NCBI GenBank assembly: GCA_946548065.1 | Contig: CAMNPM010000004.1 | Coordinates: forward strand, 28,769 to 92,768 | Length of the DNA: 64,000 nt | Direction of reading: 5' to 3' | From: an uncultured Prevotella sp. | Lineage (GTDB): Bacteria > Bacteroidota > Bacteroidia > Bacteroidales > Bacteroidaceae | Part shown: positions 10,938 through 57,912 of the stretch, in pieces | Numbering within the stretch: position 1 is the first letter of the stretch | Layout of the letters: the number at the start of each line of letters is the position of its first letter | Made by a program: the position numbers and the translations under genes | The notes under the pieces: model-generated | Told to the model about the DNA's origin: nothing | Databases searched by the model: none | The model's input: only the letters and a program-made list of their open reading frames with translations

Positions 10938-12038
10938 TTATCTGCGTCCGCCGAAGGAACGTCCTCCGCCCATGCTCCGTCCACCACCGCTGTGGCCTCC
11001 TCCGCTGAAGCTTCCACCACCGCGTGTACCGCCTCCGCCAAAGCTTCCGCTGCTACCGAAGGACCGGCCTCCGCTGCCATAGGAGCTGCTGCGCCCACCT
11101 CCGCTGAAGCCTCCGCTGCTGTGGCTTCTGCCGCTAAAGCTTCCGCTGCCATAGGAGCTGCTGCGCCCGCCTCCACTGAAGCTTCCGCTGCTCTGGCTTC
11201 TGCCGCTAAAGCTTCCGCTGCCATAGGAGCTGCTGCGCCCGCCTCCGCTAAAGCTTCCGCTGCCATAAGAGCTGCTGCGCCCGCCTCCGTTGAAACTGCC
11301 GCTGCTGTGGCTTCTGCCGCTAAAGCTTCCGCTGCCGTAGTTGCCCGAGGTGCTGCCCGAGGGACGGCTACCGAAGGTGCGACCGCTGTTGTATGTGGTG
11401 CGACGTCCGCTGCTGCCTATGCCGGTTCGTCCGTGAACGGTGGTGCGGGTCGAGCTGATGCGGTAGCCGCCACCGTATGTGACGTGATGTCTGCTACTGT
11501 GGTGAACGCTGCGGAAGTCACCGCGGTTCCAACGGTCGAGCATTCCGAAGTGGCTTCGTCCTACGGGACGGAAGTGTTCGCGACGGCTGTGGTACCATCC
11601 GCGTCCGCCAACGACATGCCAAGCGTGTCCGCCTCTGTAGCTGGCGTAGAACGCCGGGCGTCCGAAGTAGAAATAGTCGCGGTGTGGATAGCGGGCGTAT
11701 ACGGCAAAGTGCCAGTAGCCGGCATCCCAGTAGAGTGGGCGGTAGAAATAGGTGGCGGCACAGAAAGCCTGCCACTGCCAGTCGAGCAGGATATAGCTCA
11801 TGTCGAGATTGCGACGCTCCCAATAGGTGGCGTAGACATCGTCGTAGCTGGTCACGCCCATCAGGTAGTCGAGGTTAATCTCGTAGGCAGCCTCATACTG
11901 CTCGTCGGTGAGATTAAGCTCATAGGCCATCTTGTCGGTCAGGAACAGAGCCTCGTTGCGAGCCTGCTCGTAGCTCATTGCCTTGCCCGTTGCTGCTATC
12001 GTCAGCAATGCTATCAGGGTCATCATCAACTTCTTCAT
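10938..12038 (-). CDS. Secreted Ser/Gly-rich repeat protein
   Basis: Signal peptide MKKLMMTLIALLTIAATGKA; C-terminal half GRSSSYGSGSFSGRSHSSG repeats. Confidence 0.75.
   Translation of the reverse strand: MKKLMMTLIALLTIAATGKAMSYEQARNEALFLTDKMAYELNLTDEQYEAAYEINLDYLMGVTSYDDVYATYWERRNLDMSYILLDWQWQAFCAATYFYRPLYWDAGYWHFAVYARYPHRDYFYFGRPAFYASYRGGHAWHVVGGRGWYHSRREHFRPVGRSHFGMLDRWNRGDFRSVHHSSRHHVTYGGGYRISSTRTTVHGRTGIGSSGRRTTYNSGRTFGSRPSGSTSGNYGSGSFSGRSHSSGSFNGGGRSSSYGSGSFSGGGRSSSYGSGSFSGRSQSSGSFSGGGRSSSYGSGSFSGRSHSSGGFSGGGRSSSYGSGGRSFGSSGSFGGGGTRGGGSFSGGGHSGGGRSMGGGRSFGGRR
11045..11345. repeat. Modular tandem repeat within Ser/Gly-rich gene
   Basis: Repeated GCTTCCGCTGCCATAGGAGCTGCTGCGCCCGCCTCC and GGCTTCTGCCGCTAAAGCTTCCGCTG modules. 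Confidence 0.85.
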
Positions 12039-41883: not shown

Positions 41884-42608
41884 GAAAACCGCACATCAAG
41901 AGTATTCCCTACGAGGAGTGGAATGACAACACCTCGCTGGAGAAGATTATTGACGAGCTCCATGAGGGCGGAGTCAATGTGGTGACTGGTTCGCTTGACC
42001 AGCTGATTAACTGGGGCCGTTCCAACTCGCTGTGGTCGCTTACCTTTGCTACTTCGTGCTGTGGCATCGAGTTTATGGCTTGCGGCTGCTCCCGTTACGA
42101 CTTTGCACGTTTCGGTTTCGAGGTGACGCGAAACTCACCTCGCCAGGCCGACTTGATTATGTGTGCAGGAACCATAACTCACAAAATGGCACCTGCATTG
42201 AAGCGTTTGTACGATGAGATGGCTGAGCCTAAATACGTGATTGCTGTTGGTGGATGTGCCATCAGCGGTGGACCGTTCAAGTCGAGCTATCATGTGGTGA
42301 AGGGTATCGAGGAGATTGTACCGGTAGATGTGTTCATTCCCGGCTGTCCTCCACGCCCAGAGGCTATCATGTATGGCATGATGCAGTTGCAGCGTAAGGT
42401 GAAGATTGAGAAATTCTTCGGTGGTGTCAACCATAAGCAGACAGCAGCAGAGAAAGAGTTGGGCGTGTCGAATGAAGAGCTGATCTTCCGCAATAAGTTG
42501 GGCGACCACCGCCGCGAGCCTATTGTGGTGACCGATGTCCCCAAGGAGTTTACGGACGAACTGAAGAATTCAAGTGTTGAAGAATTGAAGAAGGAGGACA
42601 AGGCATGA
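41874..42608 (+). CDS. nuoB: NADH-quinone oxidoreductase subunit B
   Basis: LWSLTFATSCCGIEFMA..DLIMCAGTITHKMAP..GGCAISGGPF..PVDVFIPGCPPRPEAI; true ATG 41874. Confidence 0.95.
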   Translation: MEVRKPHIKSIPYEEWNDNTSLEKIIDELHEGGVNVVTGSLDQLINWGRSNSLWSLTFATSCCGIEFMACGCSRYDFARFGFEVTRNSPRQADLIMCAGTITHKMAPALKRLYDEMAEPKYVIAVGGCAISGGPFKSSYHVVKGIEEIVPVDVFIPGCPPRPEAIMYGMMQLQRKVKIEKFFGGVNHKQTAAEKELGVSNEELIFRNKLGDHRREPIVVTDVPKEFTDELKNSSVEELKKEDKA

Positions 42609-44218
42609 AACTGGAATTCTTATCATTCGATTTTGACAAGTTCGCTCAGCAGATGCAGAACTTGAAAAGCCAGAAGGGTTTCGACTATCTGGTGACCATC
42701 GTGGGTGAAGACTTCGGATCCGAAGAGGGTCTGGGGTGTATCTATATCCTGGAGAATAGCCAGACCCATGAGCGTTGCTCGGTGAAGCAGCTGGCCAAGA
42801 CACAGGTTTGCGGCGACGGCATCGCTTCCAATGGTGCCGGTGAGACCGACGGACAGCTTATCCCCTATATCCCCACCGTATCGCATATATGGCGTGTTGC
42901 CGACTTGTTGGAGCGTGAGGTATATGACTTCTTTGGCATTGTGTTCTTGGGACATCCCGACATGCGTCGTCTGTTCCTGAGAAGCGATTTCAAGGGCTAT
43001 CCCTTCAGGAAGGACTGGAAATTCAACGATGAGTATACCCTTGAAGACGATGTAGAACCCGACTATGGTCTGGAGTATTTCCTCGACAAGGACGGCAATC
43101 TGCAGTCTAAGCAGAACAAGCTGTTCACGGCCGACGACTATGTCATCAACATCGGTCCGCAGCACCCCTCTACTCATGGAGTGCTCCGTCTGCAGACAGT
43201 GCTCGACGGTGAGACTGTGAAGCGTGTCTACCCGCATCTGGGCTATATCCATCGCGGTATCGAGAAGATGTGCGAGTCGATGACTTATCCCCAGACACTG
43301 GCACTGACCGACCGTCTGAACTATCTCTCCGCCATGATGCACCGCCATGCATTGGTAGGTGTCATAGAAGAGGGTATGGGTGTGGAACTGACCGACCGCA
43401 TCAAGTATATCCGCACCATCATGGACGAGTTGCAGCGAATCGACTCCCACCTGTTGTATGTGGGTTGCTGCGCTCAGGATATGGGTGCTTTGACAGCCTT
43501 CCTCTACTCCATGCGCGACCGTGAGCATGTGCTCAACTGCATGGAGGAGACCACGGGTGGCCGTCTGATTCAGAACTACTACCGCATCGGTGGCTTGCAG
43601 GATGATATCGATCCTAACTTCGTGAAGAACGTGAAGGACTTGGTGAAGTATCTGAAGCCTATGATTCAGGAGTATGTCGATGTGTTTGGCGACAACGTGA
43701 TTACTCACAACCGTTTCGAGAAGGTGGGACCGATGTCGCTCGACGATTGCATCTCGTATGCTGTTACAGGTCCTGCCGGTCGTGCTTCTGGTTGGAAGAA
43801 TGACGTGCGCAAGAATCATCCTTATGATATGTATGACAAGGTAGAGTGGGAGCAGGTTACGATGAACGGTTGCGATACGATGGACCGTTATACTTGCCAT
43901 ATCACTGAGATGTATCAGAGCCTGCATATCATAGAGCAGCTGATAGACAACATTCCCGAGGGCGACTTCTATGTGAAGCAGAAGCCCATCATCAAGGTTC
44001 CTGAGGGACAGTGGTACTTCTCTGTCGAAGGTGCCAGCGGTGAGTTCGGTGTCTATCTCGACTCGCGTGGAGACAAGTCACCCTATCGCTTGAAGATGCG
44101 TCCCATGGGTCTCTCGCTCACCGGAGCACTTGATCCCATGTTGCGCGGACAGAAGATTGCCGACCTCGTTGCTACCGGTGCTGCTATCGACTTTGTGATT
44201 CCTGATATCGACAGATAA
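42605..44218 (+). CDS. nuoCD: NADH-quinone oxidoreductase fused subunits C/D
   Basis: NuoC-like N-terminus plus NuoD NIGPQHPSTHGVLRL..YIHRGIEKMCES; 537 aa single ORF. Confidence 0.95.
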   Translation: MKLEFLSFDFDKFAQQMQNLKSQKGFDYLVTIVGEDFGSEEGLGCIYILENSQTHERCSVKQLAKTQVCGDGIASNGAGETDGQLIPYIPTVSHIWRVADLLEREVYDFFGIVFLGHPDMRRLFLRSDFKGYPFRKDWKFNDEYTLEDDVEPDYGLEYFLDKDGNLQSKQNKLFTADDYVINIGPQHPSTHGVLRLQTVLDGETVKRVYPHLGYIHRGIEKMCESMTYPQTLALTDRLNYLSAMMHRHALVGVIEEGMGVELTDRIKYIRTIMDELQRIDSHLLYVGCCAQDMGALTAFLYSMRDREHVLNCMEETTGGRLIQNYYRIGGLQDDIDPNFVKNVKDLVKYLKPMIQEYVDVFGDNVITHNRFEKVGPMSLDDCISYAVTGPAGRASGWKNDVRKNHPYDMYDKVEWEQVTMNGCDTMDRYTCHITEMYQSLHIIEQLIDNIPEGDFYVKQKPIIKVPEGQWYFSVEGASGEFGVYLDSRGDKSPYRLKMRPMGLSLTGALDPMLRGQKIADLVATGAAIDFVIPDIDR

Positions 44219-44253
44219 TTAAGAGTTAAGAATAAAGAATTATAGAATATATG
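44217..44253. repeat. Heptamer array, nuoCD-nuoH junction
   Basis: AATTAAG AGTTAAG AATAAAG AATTATAG AATATATG. Confidence 0.75.
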
Positions 44254-46813: not shown

Positions 46814-48736
46814 ATGGATATATATAGTTATTCCTTCCTGATTCTTCTGCTGCCTGCGCTCTCCTTCGTGATTCTTGCGCTGGCGGGTATGAAGATGTCG
46901 CATAAGACCGCAGGCCTTATCGGCACCACCTCGTTAGGATTGGTTACCGTGCTGTCCTATCTGACGGCTTTCGCCTATTTCGGAGGCGACCGTCTGGCTA
47001 ATGGCACATTCCCCACATTGGTTCCCTACAACTTCACCTGGCTGCCGCTGGGCAACCTACACTTCGACATGGGCATCCTGCTGGATCCTATCTCGGTGAT
47101 GATGCTCATCGTCATCAGCACGGTGTCGTTTATGGTACATGTCTATTCCTTCGGCTATATGCACGGTGAGAAGGGTTTCCAGCGTTACTACGCCTTCCTC
47201 TCGCTGTTCACCATGTCGATGCTCGGACTGGTGCTTGCCACCAATATCTTCCAGATGTACACTTTCTGGGAACTGGTGGGCGTCAGCTCTTATCTGCTCA
47301 TCGGTTTCTACTATCCGCTGAAGCCGGCCATAGCAGCATCCAAGAAAGCATTTATCGTGACGCGCTTTGCCGATATGTTCTTCCTTATCGGTATTCTGCT
47401 CTTCGGTTTCTATTCCGGTACGTTCTCATTCGACTTCACCGTCGAGGGTTCGGTACGCGAGTATGCCGGTGCTGCCTTCGTCCTGCCTACTGCCCTGGTG
47501 CTGATGTTCATTGGTGGTGCCGGTAAGTCGGCCATGTTCCCGCTGCACATTTGGCTGCCCGACGCTATGGAGGGTCCTACGCCTGTCTCCGCACTCATCC
47601 ATGCCGCTACGATGGTGGTGGCCGGTGTGTTCCAGATTGCACGTATGTTCCCCTTGTGGATCAATTACGCACCCTCGTCACTGAGCATTGTGGTCTGGGT
47701 GGGTGTATTCACCGCTTTCTATGCTGCCGCTGTGGCGTGTGCACAGAGTGACATCAAGCGTGTGCTGGCTTTCTCCACCATCTCGCAGATTGCCTTCATG
47801 ATGGTGGCTCTCGGTGTTTGTCTGCCCGGACATCATGGCGCCGTGCTCGACAACCACGCTCAGCTGGGCTATATGGCCTCGATGTTCCACCTGTTCACTC
47901 ACGCCATGTTCAAGGCTTGCTTGTTCCTTGGGGCCGGATGCATCATTCATGCTGTCCACAGCAACGAGATGTCGATGATGGGTGGCTTGCGCAAGTACAT
48001 GCCTATCACTCACATCACGTTCCTCATTTCATGTCTGGCCATTGCCGGTATTCCACCGTTCTCGGGATTCTTCTCGAAGGATGAGATCCTGACTGCCTGC
48101 ATGCAGTACAGTCCTGTCTGCGGTTGGATTATGACGGGTGTGGCTGCGATGACGGCATTCTATATGTTCCGCCTTTACTACGGCATCTTCTGGGGAACAG
48201 AGAATAAGGAGGCTCATGCTCATCATACACCCCACGAGGCACCGTGGACCATGACCTTCCCGCTGATATTCCTTTCGGTGGTCACCTGTCTGTGTGGCTT
48301 CCTGCCCTTCGGACACTTCGTGTCTGCCAGCGGTCAGGCCTACGACATCCACCTCGACTGGACCGTTGCAGGAACCTCTATTGTCATAGCAGTCTGCTCC
48401 ATCTGTCTGGCCACCTATATATATAAAGGTGAGTCGCAGCCCGTTGCCGACCGTCTGTTCAAGACGTTCCCACGTCTGCACCAGGCAGCCTACAAGCGCT
48501 TCTATCAGGATGAGATCTGGCAGTATGTCACTCACCGCATCATCTTCCGCTGCATCTCCAAGCCCGTGGCCTGGTTCGACCGCCACGTGGTTGACGGAAC
48601 GTTCAATTTCTTGGCCTGGGGTGCCAACGAGGCCGGTGAGAGCCTCCGTCCCTGGCAGAGCGGTGATGTGCGCCAGTATGCTGTGTGGTTCCTCACGGGA
48701 ACGGTGGCTTTAACGCTGGTTCTTTTGGCGGTTTAA
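46814..48736 (+). CDS. nuoL: NADH-quinone oxidoreductase subunit L
   Basis: 640 aa; FWELVGVSSYLLIGFYYPLKPA; PLHIWLPDAMEGPTPVSALIHAATMV. Confidence 0.96.
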   Translation: MDIYSYSFLILLLPALSFVILALAGMKMSHKTAGLIGTTSLGLVTVLSYLTAFAYFGGDRLANGTFPTLVPYNFTWLPLGNLHFDMGILLDPISVMMLIVISTVSFMVHVYSFGYMHGEKGFQRYYAFLSLFTMSMLGLVLATNIFQMYTFWELVGVSSYLLIGFYYPLKPAIAASKKAFIVTRFADMFFLIGILLFGFYSGTFSFDFTVEGSVREYAGAAFVLPTALVLMFIGGAGKSAMFPLHIWLPDAMEGPTPVSALIHAATMVVAGVFQIARMFPLWINYAPSSLSIVVWVGVFTAFYAAAVACAQSDIKRVLAFSTISQIAFMMVALGVCLPGHHGAVLDNHAQLGYMASMFHLFTHAMFKACLFLGAGCIIHAVHSNEMSMMGGLRKYMPITHITFLISCLAIAGIPPFSGFFSKDEILTACMQYSPVCGWIMTGVAAMTAFYMFRLYYGIFWGTENKEAHAHHTPHEAPWTMTFPLIFLSVVTCLCGFLPFGHFVSASGQAYDIHLDWTVAGTSIVIAVCSICLATYIYKGESQPVADRLFKTFPRLHQAAYKRFYQDEIWQYVTHRIIFRCISKPVAWFDRHVVDGTFNFLAWGANEAGESLRPWQSGDVRQYAVWFLTGTVALTLVLLAV

Positions 48737-48739
48737 TAA

Positions 48740-48795
48740 CATCGAAATATCGAAGTCTCGAAACTTCGAAACCTCGAAATAACGAAACAACGAAA
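48740..48795. repeat. Octamer array (7 x 8 bp, CGAAA core), nuoL-nuoM junction
   Basis: CATCGAAA TATCGAAG TCTCGAAA CTTCGAAA CCTCGAAA TAACGAAA CAACGAAA-CA-ATG. Confidence 0.95.
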
Positions 48796-48797
48796 CA

Positions 48798-50279
48798 ATG
48801 AGTATATTAAGTTTATTTGTCGTAATTCCCGCCCTGATGCTCTTGGGCCTTTGGCTGGCCAAGAACCTTAGTCAGGTGCGTGGTGTGATGGTGGCAGGTG
48901 CCTCATGTCTGCTGGCCCTGTCCGTATGGCTTACCATCTATTTCGTTCAGCAGCGAGCCGCAGGCAATACCGACGTGATGCTGCTGACGGCTTCCACACC
49001 GTGGTTCAAGCCTCTGAATATAGCCTATTCCGTGGGTGTCGACGGCATTTCGGTGGTCATGCTGCTCCTGTCGAGCATCATCGTCTTCACCGGTACCTTC
49101 GCTTCCTGGCAGTTGAAACCTATGACGAAGGAGTATTTCCTTTGGTTCACCCTCCTCTCGACGGGTGTCTATGGCTTCTTCATCTGCACCGATATGTTCA
49201 CCATGTTTATGTTCTATGAGGTGGCTCTGATTCCCATGTACCTGCTGATAGGCGTGTGGGGCTCTGGCAACAAGGAGTATGCTGCTATGAAGCTGACCCT
49301 GATGCTGATGGGTGGCTCAGCCCTGCTGATTCTCGGCATCCTGGGCATCTATTACTTCAGTGGTGCCACTACGATGAATGTCAACGAGATTGCTGCCATG
49401 CACAATATCCCCGTTGAGACGCAGAAGATCTTCTTCCCGTTCATCTTCATCGGATTTGGCGTGCTGGGTGCGCTGTTCCCCTTCCATACATGGTCGCCCG
49501 ACGGTCATGCTTCAGCCCCTACGGCAGTGTCGATGCTGCATGCGGGTGTGCTGATGAAGCTGGGAGGCTACGGCTGTTTCCGTGTAGCCATGTACTTGCT
49601 GCCTGATGCTGCCAACGAACTGGCTTGGATATTCCTTATCCTGACCACCATCTCGGTAGTCTATGGTGCCTTCTCGGCTTGTGTGCAGACCGACCTGAAG
49701 TACATCAATGCTTATTCGTCCGTGTCGCACTGTGGACTGGTGCTCTTTGCTCTGCTCATGATGACCAAGACCTCTTGCACGGGTGCTATCCTGCAGATGC
49801 TGTCGCACGGTCTGATGACGGCCCTCTTCTTTGCCCTCATTGGTATGATCTATGGCCGCACCCACACCCGCGACATCCGCTACTTGGACGGTCTGATGAA
49901 GATTATGCCGTTCCTGGCCGTGGGCTATGTCGTGGCTGGTCTGGCCAACCTCGGTCTGCCGGGCTTCTCGGGCTTCATCGCTGAGATGACTATCTTCGTG
50001 GGTTCGTTCGAGAATGCCGACACCTTCCATCGTGTGGCTACCATCATCGCCTGTACGTCGATTGTCGTCACCGCTGTCTATATCCTGCGTGTCGTCGGTA
50101 AGATTCTGTATGGCGAGGTGAAGAACCCCCACTATCTGGAGCTCACCGATGCTACCTGGGACGAGCGTGTCGCCGTCATCTGCCTCATTGCTTGTGTGGC
50201 AGGCCTCGGACTCTTCCCCCTCTGGGCAAGCAATGTTATCAGCGATGCTGTAGGGCCCATCCTCGCGAACATCATATAA
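48798..50279 (+). CDS. nuoM: NADH-quinone oxidoreductase subunit M
   Basis: FYEVALIPMYLLIGVWG; PFHTWSPDGHASAPTAVSMLHAGVLMKLGGYG. Confidence 0.96.
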   Translation: MSILSLFVVIPALMLLGLWLAKNLSQVRGVMVAGASCLLALSVWLTIYFVQQRAAGNTDVMLLTASTPWFKPLNIAYSVGVDGISVVMLLLSSIIVFTGTFASWQLKPMTKEYFLWFTLLSTGVYGFFICTDMFTMFMFYEVALIPMYLLIGVWGSGNKEYAAMKLTLMLMGGSALLILGILGIYYFSGATTMNVNEIAAMHNIPVETQKIFFPFIFIGFGVLGALFPFHTWSPDGHASAPTAVSMLHAGVLMKLGGYGCFRVAMYLLPDAANELAWIFLILTTISVVYGAFSACVQTDLKYINAYSSVSHCGLVLFALLMMTKTSCTGAILQMLSHGLMTALFFALIGMIYGRTHTRDIRYLDGLMKIMPFLAVGYVVAGLANLGLPGFSGFIAEMTIFVGSFENADTFHRVATIIACTSIVVTAVYILRVVGKILYGEVKNPHYLELTDATWDERVAVICLIACVAGLGLFPLWASNVISDAVGPILANII

Positions 50280-50280
50280 A

Positions 50281-50336
50281 CGGTAAATTCGCCAAATAGT
50301 AAATAAATCGTAAATAGTAAATCGTTAAATCGTAAA
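50281..50336. repeat. Heptamer array (TMGTAAA), nuoM-nuoN junction
   Basis: CGGTAAA TTCGCCAAA TAGTAAA TAAA TCGTAAA TAGTAAA TCGTTAAA TCGTAAA. Confidence 0.9.
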
Positions 50337-50344
50337 TTACTTTT

Positions 50345-51826
50345 ATGGGATATAGTCAATTCTTAAATATGATTCCCGAGGCCTTCCTGGTTCTCGCATT
50401 GATTCTGGTGTTCTTTGCCGACTTCAGCCTGATGAAGAGCGAGCGCAAGAATGCCGTGCTCAGCAAGCTGACCGGAGCCTTGCTCATCTGTCTGATGCTG
50501 CTTACCACCACCGTGAGTCCCGCTCAGGCTTTTGGTGGCATGTACATCTCGTCCCAGGCCGCCAATGTGATGAAGATGATCCTGACCCTGGGAACGCTCA
50601 TCGTGGTTATCATGGCACAGCCCTGGCTCGAAGGCGGTTGCCAAATCGTAAATAGTAAATCGTCAAGTAGTAAATACAGTGGCGAGTTCTATCTGCTGGT
50701 GCTCTCGACACTGTTGGGCATGTTCATCATGATGTCCAGCGGCCACTTCCTGCTGTTCTTCCTCGGACTGGAGACAGCCTCGGTGCCTATGGCCTGTCTG
50801 GTGGCTTTCGACAAGTGGAAGCGAAACTCAGCTGAGGGTGCTGCCAAATACATTCTGACGGCTACCTTCTCCAGCGGCGTGATGCTTTATGGCCTGTCGT
50901 TCCTCTATGGCGGCGTGGGTACTCTCTACTTTGATGATGTGGCCCAGCGCATTGCCTATTTCGCTCAGTATAAGAGCCAGCTGCCCTTGCTCATCATGGG
51001 GCTGGTGTTCTTCTTCAGCGGCCTGGGCTTCAAGCTGTCGCTCGTACCCTTCCACTTCTGGACGGCCGACACCTATCAGGGTGCTCCCACACCCGTCACT
51101 GGCTATCTCTCGGTAGTCTCGAAGGGTGCTGCCGCTTTTGCTCTGATGATCATCCTTGTGAAGGCCTTCGGTCCGCTTACTCAGTATTGGGAGTATCTGC
51201 TCTACATCGTCATCGTGCTTAGCATCACCATTGCCAACCTGTTTGCCATCCGCCAGTTGGAGCTCAAGCGTTTCATGGCCTTCAGCTCTATCTCACAGGC
51301 CGGATACATCATGCTGGCCGTCATCGGTTCCGCACAGGTGGGCATGACCGCTCTGATGTATTATGTGCTGATCTATGTGGTAGCCAACATGGCTGTGTTC
51401 ACTGTCATCTCGACGGTCGAGCAGAATAATGGCGGCACCACCCAGATGTCGAGCTACGACGGACTATACCAGACCAACCCCAAGCTGGCGTTCCTCATGA
51501 CGCTCGCCCTCTTCTCGCTGGCCGGTATTCCTCCGTTTGCAGGTATGTTCTCCAAGTTCTTCGTCTTCATGGCCGCCGCCCAGCAGGGTTCCTTCTGGGC
51601 CTATTTCGTGGTGTTCATCGCTTTGGTCAATACGGTGGTGAGCTTGTACTACTATCTGCTCATTGTCAAGGCGATGTATATCAAGCAGACCGACAGCCCG
51701 CTGCCCACCTTCACGACGGCTGGCAGTACGCGTCTGGCTCTGGCCGTCTGCACCGCAGGCATCGTGCTCTTCGGCATCTGCTCTTGCATCTACGACTATC
51801 TCTTTGCAGCGTCTGCTACATTGTAG
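50345..51826 (+). CDS. nuoN: NADH-quinone oxidoreductase subunit N
   Basis: GLETASVPMACLVAFDKWKRNSAEGAAKYILTATFSSG; PFHFWTADTYQGAPTPVTGYLS. Confidence 0.95.
   Translation: MGYSQFLNMIPEAFLVLALILVFFADFSLMKSERKNAVLSKLTGALLICLMLLTTTVSPAQAFGGMYISSQAANVMKMILTLGTLIVVIMAQPWLEGGCQIVNSKSSSSKYSGEFYLLVLSTLLGMFIMMSSGHFLLFFLGLETASVPMACLVAFDKWKRNSAEGAAKYILTATFSSGVMLYGLSFLYGGVGTLYFDDVAQRIAYFAQYKSQLPLLIMGLVFFFSGLGFKLSLVPFHFWTADTYQGAPTPVTGYLSVVSKGAAAFALMIILVKAFGPLTQYWEYLLYIVIVLSITIANLFAIRQLELKRFMAFSSISQAGYIMLAVIGSAQVGMTALMYYVLIYVVANMAVFTVISTVEQNNGGTTQMSSYDGLYQTNPKLAFLMTLALFSLAGIPPFAGMFSKFFVFMAAAQQGSFWAYFVVFIALVNTVVSLYYYLLIVKAMYIKQTDSPLPTFTTAGSTRLALAVCTAGIVLFGICSCIYDYLFAASATL
50646..50674. repeat. Same TMGTAAA heptamer array, in frame inside nuoN
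   Basis: TCGTAAA TAGTAAA TCGTCAAG TAGTAAA; 21-nt exact match (50643-50663 = 50305-50325). Confidence 0.9.
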
Positions 51827-51852
51827 GCAGACTGTTCTCTCTTTGAGAGTGC

Positions 51853-51891
51853 AGCTTCGCAATCTTGCTTCGCGAGTGTCACCTCGCAGTG
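51853..51891. repeat. Three 13-bp degenerate repeats between nuoN and terminator
   Basis: AGCTTCGCAATCT TGCTTCGCGAGTG TCACCTCGCAGTG. Confidence 0.45.
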
Positions 51892-51909
51892 AGTGCCATT
51901 CATAAAATG

Positions 51910-51948
51910 AGAATCCCGCTGGGGCAGAGCCCTGGCGGGATTCTTTTT
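51910..51948 (+). terminator. Rho-independent terminator of nuo operon
   Basis: AGAATCCCGC-TGGGGCAGAGCCCTG-GCGGGATTCT-TTTT. Confidence 0.85.
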
Positions 51949-51964
51949 GCTGTGTCGTCACAGC

Positions 51965-53209
51965 TTATTTCTTCAAGTTGAATCGGATGCCCAGCTGTAG
52001 GTTCCAGTTGGCGGGGTGGTCTTTGAAGAAGTTCTGCACCTTGCTGCCGTTGTCCGGATAGTAGCGCAGTCCAGGCTCCACGTAGATGCCCAGCCACGGG
52101 GCTACATGATATTCAGCTCCTACGGCACCCCCCATCGACCATTGCGGACGGTCGCGCTGCATCTGTGTCTCCACGCCCTCAGTCACCGACTTGGCATGTA
52201 GGTTCCAGTCTATCTCCATACCCGCTGAGGCATACAGTCGCCATCGTTGTCTCTCCACGATGTCGTATTGTATGCTGAGGGGTACACCCAGATAGTGCAG
52301 TGTCTGGTCGGTACCGATGCTCACCTGTTTCATCGTGGTGCTGAAGTCCGACCGCAGTCGGGTATAAACCAGACCGGTGCCTATAGTCCATCGTGTGCTC
52401 AGCGGGTAGCTGACGGTCAGTCCTATGGATATGGGCTGACTGTGGTGCTGTCGCTCCTCATGTCCTACCAGCCAGATGGGTTCGTTGCTGTTAGCAGTGC
52501 GTGTGGGCAGATAGTCGGAGAAGTCGTAGTGCTTAGCCATCTCGGGACTCATCTGTACCCCATTGCTGTGTGTGTAGGCTAATAGTCCTCCGTTGGCATG
52601 CAGTCCGAGGCTCAGCGACTTACGCCCTTTCTTGGCTGGCTGTCGGGCTGTCGTGGGTTCCTGCTGTCGGGCTGTCATAGTTCCCTGTTGTCGGTTGGCA
52701 GGCTTGGTGCTCTGGGGGTGGGGTAGAGTGGGCTGTTGCGCTCCGTGTTGTTCACCGTTAGCATTGCCGTTGCTGGCGTCGACCATCTCGCTATGATCTG
52801 TCCTTGCATTATTGTCGGTCATCTCGCTATCATTGGTCGCCTCGCAGATCTGGCTGTCTGCGCGGTGTGGCAGGGGTGCTGTCGCCGTGCTGAGGGGGCG
52901 TTCTGCCTGTGCGGTGGCTTTCTCCATTGTCAGGACTGATGCTTGCTGCTGTGCTGTCGCTGGTGCCTGCTGCTGTGCTGTCAGTAGGGCTTGCTGTTGC
53001 TGCTTGTTGGCAGGCCATAGCCACCAGGCGGTGCTGCTGACCATTAACAGTACTGCTGCCGCACTGACCCAGCGGTGCCAGAGGGGTGTTGTCTTTGTGT
53101 GCTGCTGAGGCAACGACTGTTTGATGTCGGTCCACAGCCCTTCTGGGACGGCTGCTTCGTAGTCGGCCATCCTGTCGCGCAGTTTCTGGGTCCAGTCTTG
53201 TTGCTTCAT
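51965..53209 (-). CDS. Anti-sigma-like protein: cytoplasmic N-terminus, one TM, Q-rich linker, outer-membrane beta-barrel C-terminus
   Basis: MKQQDWTQKLRDRMADYEAAVPEGLWTDIKQSL; TM WVSAAAVLLMVSSTAWWLW; barrel SLGLHANGGLLAY..LQLGIRFNLKK; overlaps ECF sigma stop. Confidence 0.75.
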   Translation of the reverse strand: MKQQDWTQKLRDRMADYEAAVPEGLWTDIKQSLPQQHTKTTPLWHRWVSAAAVLLMVSSTAWWLWPANKQQQQALLTAQQQAPATAQQQASVLTMEKATAQAERPLSTATAPLPHRADSQICEATNDSEMTDNNARTDHSEMVDASNGNANGEQHGAQQPTLPHPQSTKPANRQQGTMTARQQEPTTARQPAKKGRKSLSLGLHANGGLLAYTHSNGVQMSPEMAKHYDFSDYLPTRTANSNEPIWLVGHEERQHHSQPISIGLTVSYPLSTRWTIGTGLVYTRLRSDFSTTMKQVSIGTDQTLHYLGVPLSIQYDIVERQRWRLYASAGMEIDWNLHAKSVTEGVETQMQRDRPQWSMGGAVGAEYHVAPWLGIYVEPGLRYYPDNGSKVQNFFKDHPANWNLQLGIRFNLKK

Positions 53210-55851: not shown

Positions 55852-57912
55852 TTATAGATTGAAGTGGTATTTCGCTCCTACCTTGAGCCACAGACCTGGC
55901 TGCGGCACGTTGCCGTAGTCGACGTAGCGATGCGACAGCAAGTTGTTGGCCTCCATATAAACAGAATAGGTGTCGGCATTCCAACTGAGACGGCTGTCGA
56001 TGATGGAGTAGGGGTGATAAGCCTGCACCAGTCCATTAGTGTCGGTATACGACCCCATGCGGTCTTGCCATCGATAGCAGAGCGTCCAGTCAATGCGGCT
56101 GGTGAGGTGCATCAGCAGTTGTGCCGTCAGCTTGTGGCGCAGATACTCCAGCGAGTATTGCGACTGCAGATAGTCCTCCACATCCTTGTCCTGATGCAGG
56201 AAGCAGTAAGACAAGTTGAGAGTTGAGAGTTCAGAGTTGAGAGTGACAGTTGTCTCGAAGCCCACGGTGTTGATGCGCGTGAGGTTGACGCTCTGCCATA
56301 CGGGATCAGCTTCGCGGGTGTCGCGCACCCAGTCGATGGTGTTGCGCTGGTGATGATGGAAGACGCTGGCCTTGGCTGAGAGCCAGCGGTTGTTATACCT
56401 GATGCCTCCCTCTACGGCATGCAGCTCTTCAGGCTTCAGATACTTGTCTGCCTTATGTCCGCCCACGCTGTAGTAGAGCTCGGTAAACGAGGGCATGCGC
56501 AGCGAGGAGTTGTATGAGGCATACACCTTCCAGTTGTCGCCCAGCCGGTAGCTGGCATCAATACCTGGGTAGACCTTGAAGGGCATTTGGTTCCATGTGT
56601 TCTTGACGGCAATGAATCCGGCAGAGAGGGTGAAGCGCCGCAGCAGGATGTTGTGCTCCAGGTGGAACGAGAGGTTAGAACGGTTCAGTCCTACTTTATA
56701 ATGGCTAAATGCCTCATTGAGGGGTTCACCCAGATTGGTGCTGACAATGTCCTCGTTGCGAAACTCGGCACCGAAGGCCGTGCGGCCCAGCAGCCAGTCG
56801 AACCAGCTGTTCAGGTTGATGCCGAATACATCAGTGCGGTGGTAGTTGAAGGGTACTTTTGCCTCCGAACCCCGTATCAGTTCGAAGCGGTCGTGGCCGC
56901 GGTTCCAGCTGATGGCGGGCTTGAAGTGCCATTTCCCCACCACGATGTCGCCCTGAAGGGCGGTAAAGAGCTTGGTGGTATTCTCATACTGCTCGTCGTA
57001 CTTGGCACTGTAGAAGGTGTTGGATCCGAATCCCTTGGTGGAGAGTCCTGCGTGCCAGGAGAGGTGGGAAGCCTCTCCCCCTGCCCCTCCCTGTATGGCG
57101 GGGAGTAAAATGTGGCCTTGATAGAAGGCCTTGAAGCCCGAGTAGTCGCTGTTGAGTGCTCCACTCTTCGAGCGTGAGTAGCCATCGCTGCGCGTGAAGT
57201 TGGCACTCAGGCTGTGCTGTCCTAAAGCCACTCGGCCTGCCCCTGAGAGATAGCCATATGAGCCACCTTCTGCTCTTACCTCAGCCATCTTACATCCGAC
57301 ATCTTTCGTCACGATGTTAATCGCGCCTACCAATGAGCTGGTGCCATACACGCGTCCAGCAGGCCCCTCCAGCACCTCGATGCGCTCAATGTCTGAGAGG
57401 TCGCAGGGCAGGTCGAAGGCGTTGTGGCCCGTCTGCGGGTCGCAGATGTTGATGCCGTTGAGCAGGATGGTAATCTGCTCCTGTGTACCCCCTCGGATGC
57501 CCACGTCCGTCTGGGCACCAATAGGTCCGCGCTGACGTACGTCAACGCCTACGGCCATCTTCAGCAAATCGTTAATACTTTGTACTGGCGCCGCCTGAAT
57601 ATCCTCGCGGCTCAGTACAGTGACCATTCTCGCGGCTTGCCCGAGAGCAAGCGGTGCGCGTGAGCCCGTCACCTCGACATTGTCGAGGGTCGCCTCCTTG
57701 TCGATGCCGTCGTCGATAGCCGTCGTGCTGACTGAAGTGCCGTCAGCCACTGTCACATCATCGGCAGTGGTGCTGGCAGCAGCTCTGAGTGTTGCTACGC
57801 TGAGCACACCGATGGTGACCACGCGTCCCAGACAGGCAAACAGGGCATACCCTTTCCGCGAAAACTGGCGGAAACGGAGGGCCTTGCGCTGGTTGAATTG
57901 TGGTTTGTACAT
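55852..57912 (-). CDS. TonB-dependent outer membrane receptor (BtuB-like)
   Basis: Plug IRGGTQEQITILLNGINICDPQTGHNAFDLPCDLSDIERIEVLEGPAGRVYGTSSLVGAINIVTK; C-terminal GLWLKVGAKYHFNL. Confidence 0.9.
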   Translation of the reverse strand: MYKPQFNQRKALRFRQFSRKGYALFACLGRVVTIGVLSVATLRAAASTTADDVTVADGTSVSTTAIDDGIDKEATLDNVEVTGSRAPLALGQAARMVTVLSREDIQAAPVQSINDLLKMAVGVDVRQRGPIGAQTDVGIRGGTQEQITILLNGINICDPQTGHNAFDLPCDLSDIERIEVLEGPAGRVYGTSSLVGAINIVTKDVGCKMAEVRAEGGSYGYLSGAGRVALGQHSLSANFTRSDGYSRSKSGALNSDYSGFKAFYQGHILLPAIQGGAGGEASHLSWHAGLSTKGFGSNTFYSAKYDEQYENTTKLFTALQGDIVVGKWHFKPAISWNRGHDRFELIRGSEAKVPFNYHRTDVFGINLNSWFDWLLGRTAFGAEFRNEDIVSTNLGEPLNEAFSHYKVGLNRSNLSFHLEHNILLRRFTLSAGFIAVKNTWNQMPFKVYPGIDASYRLGDNWKVYASYNSSLRMPSFTELYYSVGGHKADKYLKPEELHAVEGGIRYNNRWLSAKASVFHHHQRNTIDWVRDTREADPVWQSVNLTRINTVGFETTVTLNSELSTLNLSYCFLHQDKDVEDYLQSQYSLEYLRHKLTAQLLMHLTSRIDWTLCYRWQDRMGSYTDTNGLVQAYHPYSIIDSRLSWNADTYSVYMEANNLLSHRYVDYGNVPQPGLWLKVGAKYHFNL
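56214..56241. repeat. Perfect/near-perfect AGTTGAG heptamer x4 inside TonB receptor gene
   Basis: AGTTGAG AGTTGAG AGTTCAG AGTTGAG. Confidence 0.9.

Follow-up and report, generated by a model that had tools for sequence, protein, structure and literature searches.

In-frame heptamer-array insert in nuoN of an uncultured Prevotella shares the layout of a repeat family dispersed before start codons and inside genes

The nuoN gene of an uncultured rumen Prevotella sp. contains an in-frame array of TAAATnG heptamers whose layout recurs throughout the host genome, mostly directly before start codons and less often inside unrelated conserved genes. All copies found inside genes are sense-oriented and read in a single frame, the nuoN insert is restricted to few lineages and shared with a sister species, the inserts are under relaxed constraint, and in other species the same protein loops hold other heptamers. 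From the likeness among the copies we infer that the family has spread by copying. Our explanation, which we hold with good confidence, is that of a dispersed family of copied A-rich arrays acting as leaders between genes and carried as neutral passengers in protein loops, and the nuoN segment would be one such copy. Copies would have been pasted into permissive loops of conserved proteins with a net gain of a multiple of 3 nt; in NuoN, the copy would have replaced the short inter-helix loop, adding nine residues, before the split of the window species and its sister G229, and would now drift nearly neutrally as a tolerated passenger.

The window, i.e., the whole 64 kb stretch of DNA that was analysed, contains the features listed in Table 1. 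As the initial annotation had reported, the 21-nt repeat AAATCGTAAATAGTAAATCGT is exact at 50305-50325 in the nuoM-nuoN gap and at 50643-50663 inside nuoN, and the likeness extends to a 91% match over 33 nt (50305-50337 vs 50643-50675), with a one-base phase slip before the fourth unit common to both arrays. Within 48501-52400 no exact repeat is longer than these 21 nt; in 300 order-2 Markov simulations of this stretch the maximum was 15 nt, and for the whole 64 kb the simulated longest repeat never exceeded 19 nt (60 simulations). The nuoN frame is open through the array, which is translated as WLEGGCQIVNSKSSSSKYSGEF, and the protein is intact (TIGR01770). No inverted repeat was found at either the gap array or the nuoN array.

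Table 1. Heptamer arrays, related repeats and neighbouring genes in the window; positions are counted from its first letter.
Feature	Position	Strand	Remarks
Heptamer array, AATTAAG type	44217..44248	+	fills gap nuoCD-nuoH
Array of 8-nt unit (AACATCGA)	48738..48797	+	fills nuoL-nuoM gap, directly before nuoM start
nuoM	48798..50279	+	upstream neighbour of nuoN; NuoM-type match in the neighbour family
Extra partial units of gap array (AATTCGCCAAATAGTAAAT)	50286..50304	+	upstream of gap array
Intergenic TAAATnG-family copy	50305..50337	+	nuoM-nuoN gap; ends 7 nt before nuoN ATG
nuoN	50345..51826	+	493 aa; carries insert between two predicted membrane helices; NCBIfam TIGR01770 match
Intragenic TAAATnG heptamer array in nuoN	50643..50675	+	33-nt family layout; in frame, part of QIVNSKSSSSKY
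CTCAACT heptamer array (second intragenic one in the window)	56214..56252	-	TonB-dependent receptor gene; read as LNSELSTLNLS

Further repeats were observed in the window. Another short in-gene repeat, of the GAATTGAA type, lies at 42558-42592 at the 3' end of nuoB and is read as ELKNSSVEELKKED. TRF also found long tandem repeats, unlike the heptamer arrays, at 11070-11340 and 1023-1128; their periods range from 18 to 114 nt.

The host genome (G000) is a MAG of 2.28 Mb in 83 contigs, 74% complete, in which the 20-mer was found at 46 places at <=3 mismatches, with none for the reversed control. The family layout AAATMGTAAATAGTAAATCGTYAAATMGTAAAT has a unit spacing of 7-7-7-8-7 with the extra base before the fourth unit, and the 33-nt pattern AAATCGTAAATAGTAAATCGTYAARTMGTAAAT occurs at 18 places in G000 and, as a near-equivalent, at 35 places in the sister genome G229. 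The phase slip thus characterises the whole family and is not specific to the pair formed by nuoN and its gap. The 33-mer of the gap array has an identical counterpart in G229. Within the genus the family is patchy, with a match at <=2 mismatches in 123 of 300 genomes. Positions relative to genes, called by a simple script, were determined for ~454 kb of G000 enriched around matches, and this sample contained 37 clusters, 30 intergenic and seven intragenic. For all but one of the intergenic clusters (29/30), a gene on the same strand begins within 70 nt and the array is sense to it; the distance from the end of the last AAAT to this start is 0-13 nt in 28 of the 29. The first TAA of an intergenic array is often the stop codon of the upstream gene.

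Bacteroidetes are described as a phylum largely without Shine-Dalgarno sites. In many Prevotella (L043-L051, L064) an AGGAGG-like sequence is seen 8-12 nt before the nuoN start. Among 65 relatives, the nuoM-nuoN gap holds an AGGAGG-like sequence in 30, TAAATnG arrays in six, AATTGAA-like arrays in five and something else in 24, thus the arrays occupy the ribosome-binding slot. In a Bacteroidetes model, adenines at -3, -6, -12 and -13 promote initiation (PMC6847099). Taken together with their position, such initiation studies (PMC6847099) suggest that the intergenic arrays are most likely unstructured A-rich leaders for translation initiation.

Comparison with relatives bears out the earlier view of the nuoN array as an insertion into a short loop, since the WLE-GEF spacing is 17 aa here and usually ~8 aa in relatives, and the flanking codons are intact. 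NuoN residues ~96-106 are non-helical and lie between two predicted helices in a structure model of low confidence (overall pLDDT 58), whose use was limited to placing these residues. The insert is absent from most relatives; the suggestion that it might be specific to the strain does not hold, as G229, the sister genome, carries it at the identical codon. The initial annotation had also named, as the finding that would speak against it, an insertion conserved genus-wide whose codon changes erase the DNA repeat. The genus does not show this; a partly erased version was found only in G384, where the loop filling is diverged. In the NuoN tree, the window and G229 are sisters (SH-aLRT 93) and G384 is placed near them, with four loci of the G384 clade (L039-L042) having no insert, so that the filling of G384 was either inherited in common, with several later losses, or gained independently, and the latter may be the case. 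A related, shorter filling is present in G129, which is distant in the tree. The loop of G034 contains another dispersed repeat, which is palindromic and has 51 matches in that genome. The insert of G174 looked palindromic as well and was considered as a further dispersed repeat of this kind; it was rejected, being not dispersed at <=3 mismatches. A second nuoM-nuoN pair was observed on contig C55 of G000 (L139), with a NuoN 77% identical to that of the window; it groups tightly with RUG785 (L071), therefore this contig probably comes from another species in the bin.

The seven intragenic copies in G000 lie in nuoN, mnmA, the genes for a GH35 beta-galactosidase and a GH3 xylosidase-like protein, rnr (RNase R) and, twice, guaA. 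All of them are read as xIVNSKSSNSKx or near forms; among the G229 copies examined, four are intragenic (both guaA sites, mnmA and one further ORF) and use the same frame. When the 33-mer is read directly, two of its sense frames are stopped early, by TAA or TAG in the first units, and the third stays open to the end owing to the 8-nt step; with this single stop-free sense frame, which encodes a polar Ile-Val-Asn-Ser-Lys peptide, the surviving inserts all read alike. Solved homologues of GuaA, RNase R and MnmA have no residues at the insert points, insert-free orthologues are short there, and no target-site duplication was seen in comparison with them. For the second guaA site, KKITDA[KR]WL or a close form is found in 27 other sequences, and G000, G229 and G384 have [KQ]KIVNS..S..KCRWL with a net gain of 21 nt; a few ancestral codons of guaA were replaced, which goes beyond mere splitting. 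The RNase R insert is present in G000 and G229 and absent from G384, indicating that the inserts were gained at different times. Codon changes between G000 and G229 in four genes amount to 12 replacement and 4 silent within the inserts, as against 141 and 516 in the rest (Fisher p = 1e-5), and on these counts the inserts appear to be near-neutral and the surrounding gene sequence strongly constrained. The antisense strand of the array would encode Tyr/Leu/Phe-rich peptides. We considered the all-sense orientation of the intragenic copies as proof of RNA-mediated copying and rejected it, because selection against such antisense peptides explains the orientation equally well.

Other species fill the same loops with other repeats. 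The heptamers are CTCAACT in the guaA and GH3 loops of G035, CTTCACT and GGAGCGA in G022, and TTGTCAA and CAAAAGC in G129. Over 31 long loops that do not belong to the TAAATnG group, self-matching of the DNA against codon shuffles reached z 12.2 at lag 7, 7.6 at lag 14 and 5.4 at lag 21, compared with no lag-7 excess (z 0.7) in 203 loops of normal length; the loops surveyed were selected for carrying inserts in the host, and these values are not a genome-wide insertion rate. TTGTCAA matches G129 at 47 places and G007 at 88, and the controls gave none. CTCAACT has 117 matches in G035, for which the reversed-pattern control is invalid, the reversed heptamer being a rotation of itself. Because related species have seven-base repeats of their own in these loops, heptamers appear to supply new protein segments again and again. 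Palindromic GC-rich repeats (e.g., CCCCCGAGGGGG) were also observed in variable loops that hold heptamers in other species, namely L311 (RNase R of G015), L229 (GuaA of G028) and L028 (NuoN of G034), and only the last of these was shown to be dispersed.

Copying, which the initial annotation had read from the sequence shared by the gap and nuoN, is upheld in the form of a dispersed family of copied arrays and not as a duplication of the neighbouring array. Derivation of the nuoN copy from the gap array 338 bp upstream would agree with the 21-nt exact and 33-nt 91% matches, with the phase slip in both arrays and with the presence of a gap array plus a loop insert in each of G229 and G384. Nevertheless, within sampled G000 two copies elsewhere are closer, C38:3532 with 32 of 33 positions (1 mismatch) and C4:4304 with 2 mismatches, compared with 3 for the gap neighbour (30/33), eight further copies match as well as that neighbour, and the phase slip is family-wide. 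Moreover, five further proteins hold inserts away from this neighbourhood, L046 combines a gap array with a normal loop, and G129 has the related filling with no gap array. Local duplication is thus a possible origin that nothing specially supports, and we consider it quite improbable. Somewhat more chance, though still a small one, can be given to independent replication slippage, by which each loop would have grown its heptamers locally out of short AT-rich seeds, no array being copied from one site to another. Bacterial simple repeats show an over-representation of heptamers, for which slippage is the proposed cause (PMC4692102), and the heptamer in one loop differs between species; however, slippage does not give the same 33-nt layout, 8-nt step and unit order at 18 sites of one genome, and the loop heptamer of a species is one of its abundant dispersed heptamers.

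It is very unlikely that NuoN and the other enzymes have acquired the peptide as a functional addition favoured by selection. The insert length is kept in G000 and G229, and for NuoN also in G384, but the codon changes are neutral-like, the same peptide occurs in unrelated enzymes and most relatives have no insert. An assembly artefact might be suspected in a MAG of 83 contigs with one, C55, that looks foreign to the bin; we find it scarcely credible, as G229, assembled separately, carries the insert at this codon too and has substitutions of its own there, G384 has a more diverged version, and the nuoN frame and the flanking protein are intact. Returning to the dispersed family of copied arrays, every copy found has the orientation of the gene that contains or follows it, which raises a transcript route. 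We offer as a speculation, to which we give little weight, that rumen Prevotella have a so far unrecognised copying process, which moves heptamer leader arrays, possibly via a transcript, and seeds both ribosome-binding regions and protein loops, the same loops being refilled repeatedly by heptamers of each species' own.

Several known repeat systems share traits with the TAAATnG arrays. Rickettsia palindromic elements (RPE) are tolerated as in-frame repeats in conserved proteins and also lie between genes (PMC2229807), and likewise the arrays are found both intergenically (30) and in frame inside unrelated conserved proteins (7). RPE are palindromes of 105-146 bp with terminal inverted repeats, whereas the arrays measure ~33 nt, have no inverted repeats and have their intergenic copies tied to start codons. 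The TAACTGA heptamers of Beggiatoaceae, some Cyanobacteria and Bacteroidetes are mostly intergenic and forward, a few nt before starts, with some in ORFs; their forward repeats contain stops in all frames and occur only at ORF ends, and the reverse repeats lie inside ORFs (PMC4679880). Forward heptamers just before start codons are common to both systems (here 29/30 intergenic clusters, 28/29 of them within 13 nt), but the unit here is TAAATnG and its forward copies occur mid-protein, because the 8-nt step opens one frame. The arrays therefore resemble RPE by outcome and TAACTGA by intergenic setting and unit length, and are a member of neither, as they differ from RPE in palindrome and size and from TAACTGA in unit sequence. 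REP sequences (GTAG/CGTC palindromes mobilised by RAYT) are likewise short, dispersed and mostly intergenic with some in genes, but they lie mostly downstream of genes (PMC3733652), which the arrays do not, nor are the arrays palindromic; the palindromic repeat in the loop of G034 NuoN may come closer to REP. In contrast to MITEs, the arrays have no inverted repeats and no target duplication relative to insert-free orthologues. As regards phase-variable simple sequence repeats, in which the number of units differs among strains and switches the frame, the nuoN insert has one and the same length in the species G000, G229 and G384. The A-rich, Shine-Dalgarno-independent initiation regions of Bacteroidetes also lie directly before the start codon (PMC6847099, PMC3155529), but these represent a positional base preference, whereas here dispersed tandem units of one family are present. 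Our literature search, limited in reach, found no report on point on heptamer or dispersed repeats in Prevotella.

Non-coding heptamer arrays turned into in-frame loop peptides provide a concrete and countable source of insertions in conserved proteins. Annotation should be cautious, as IVNSKSSNSK or LSTLNSQLST in unrelated Prevotella proteins reflects shared DNA repeats, not shared domains. A possible role of heptamer arrays as translation leaders is now testable in a phylum largely without Shine-Dalgarno sites.
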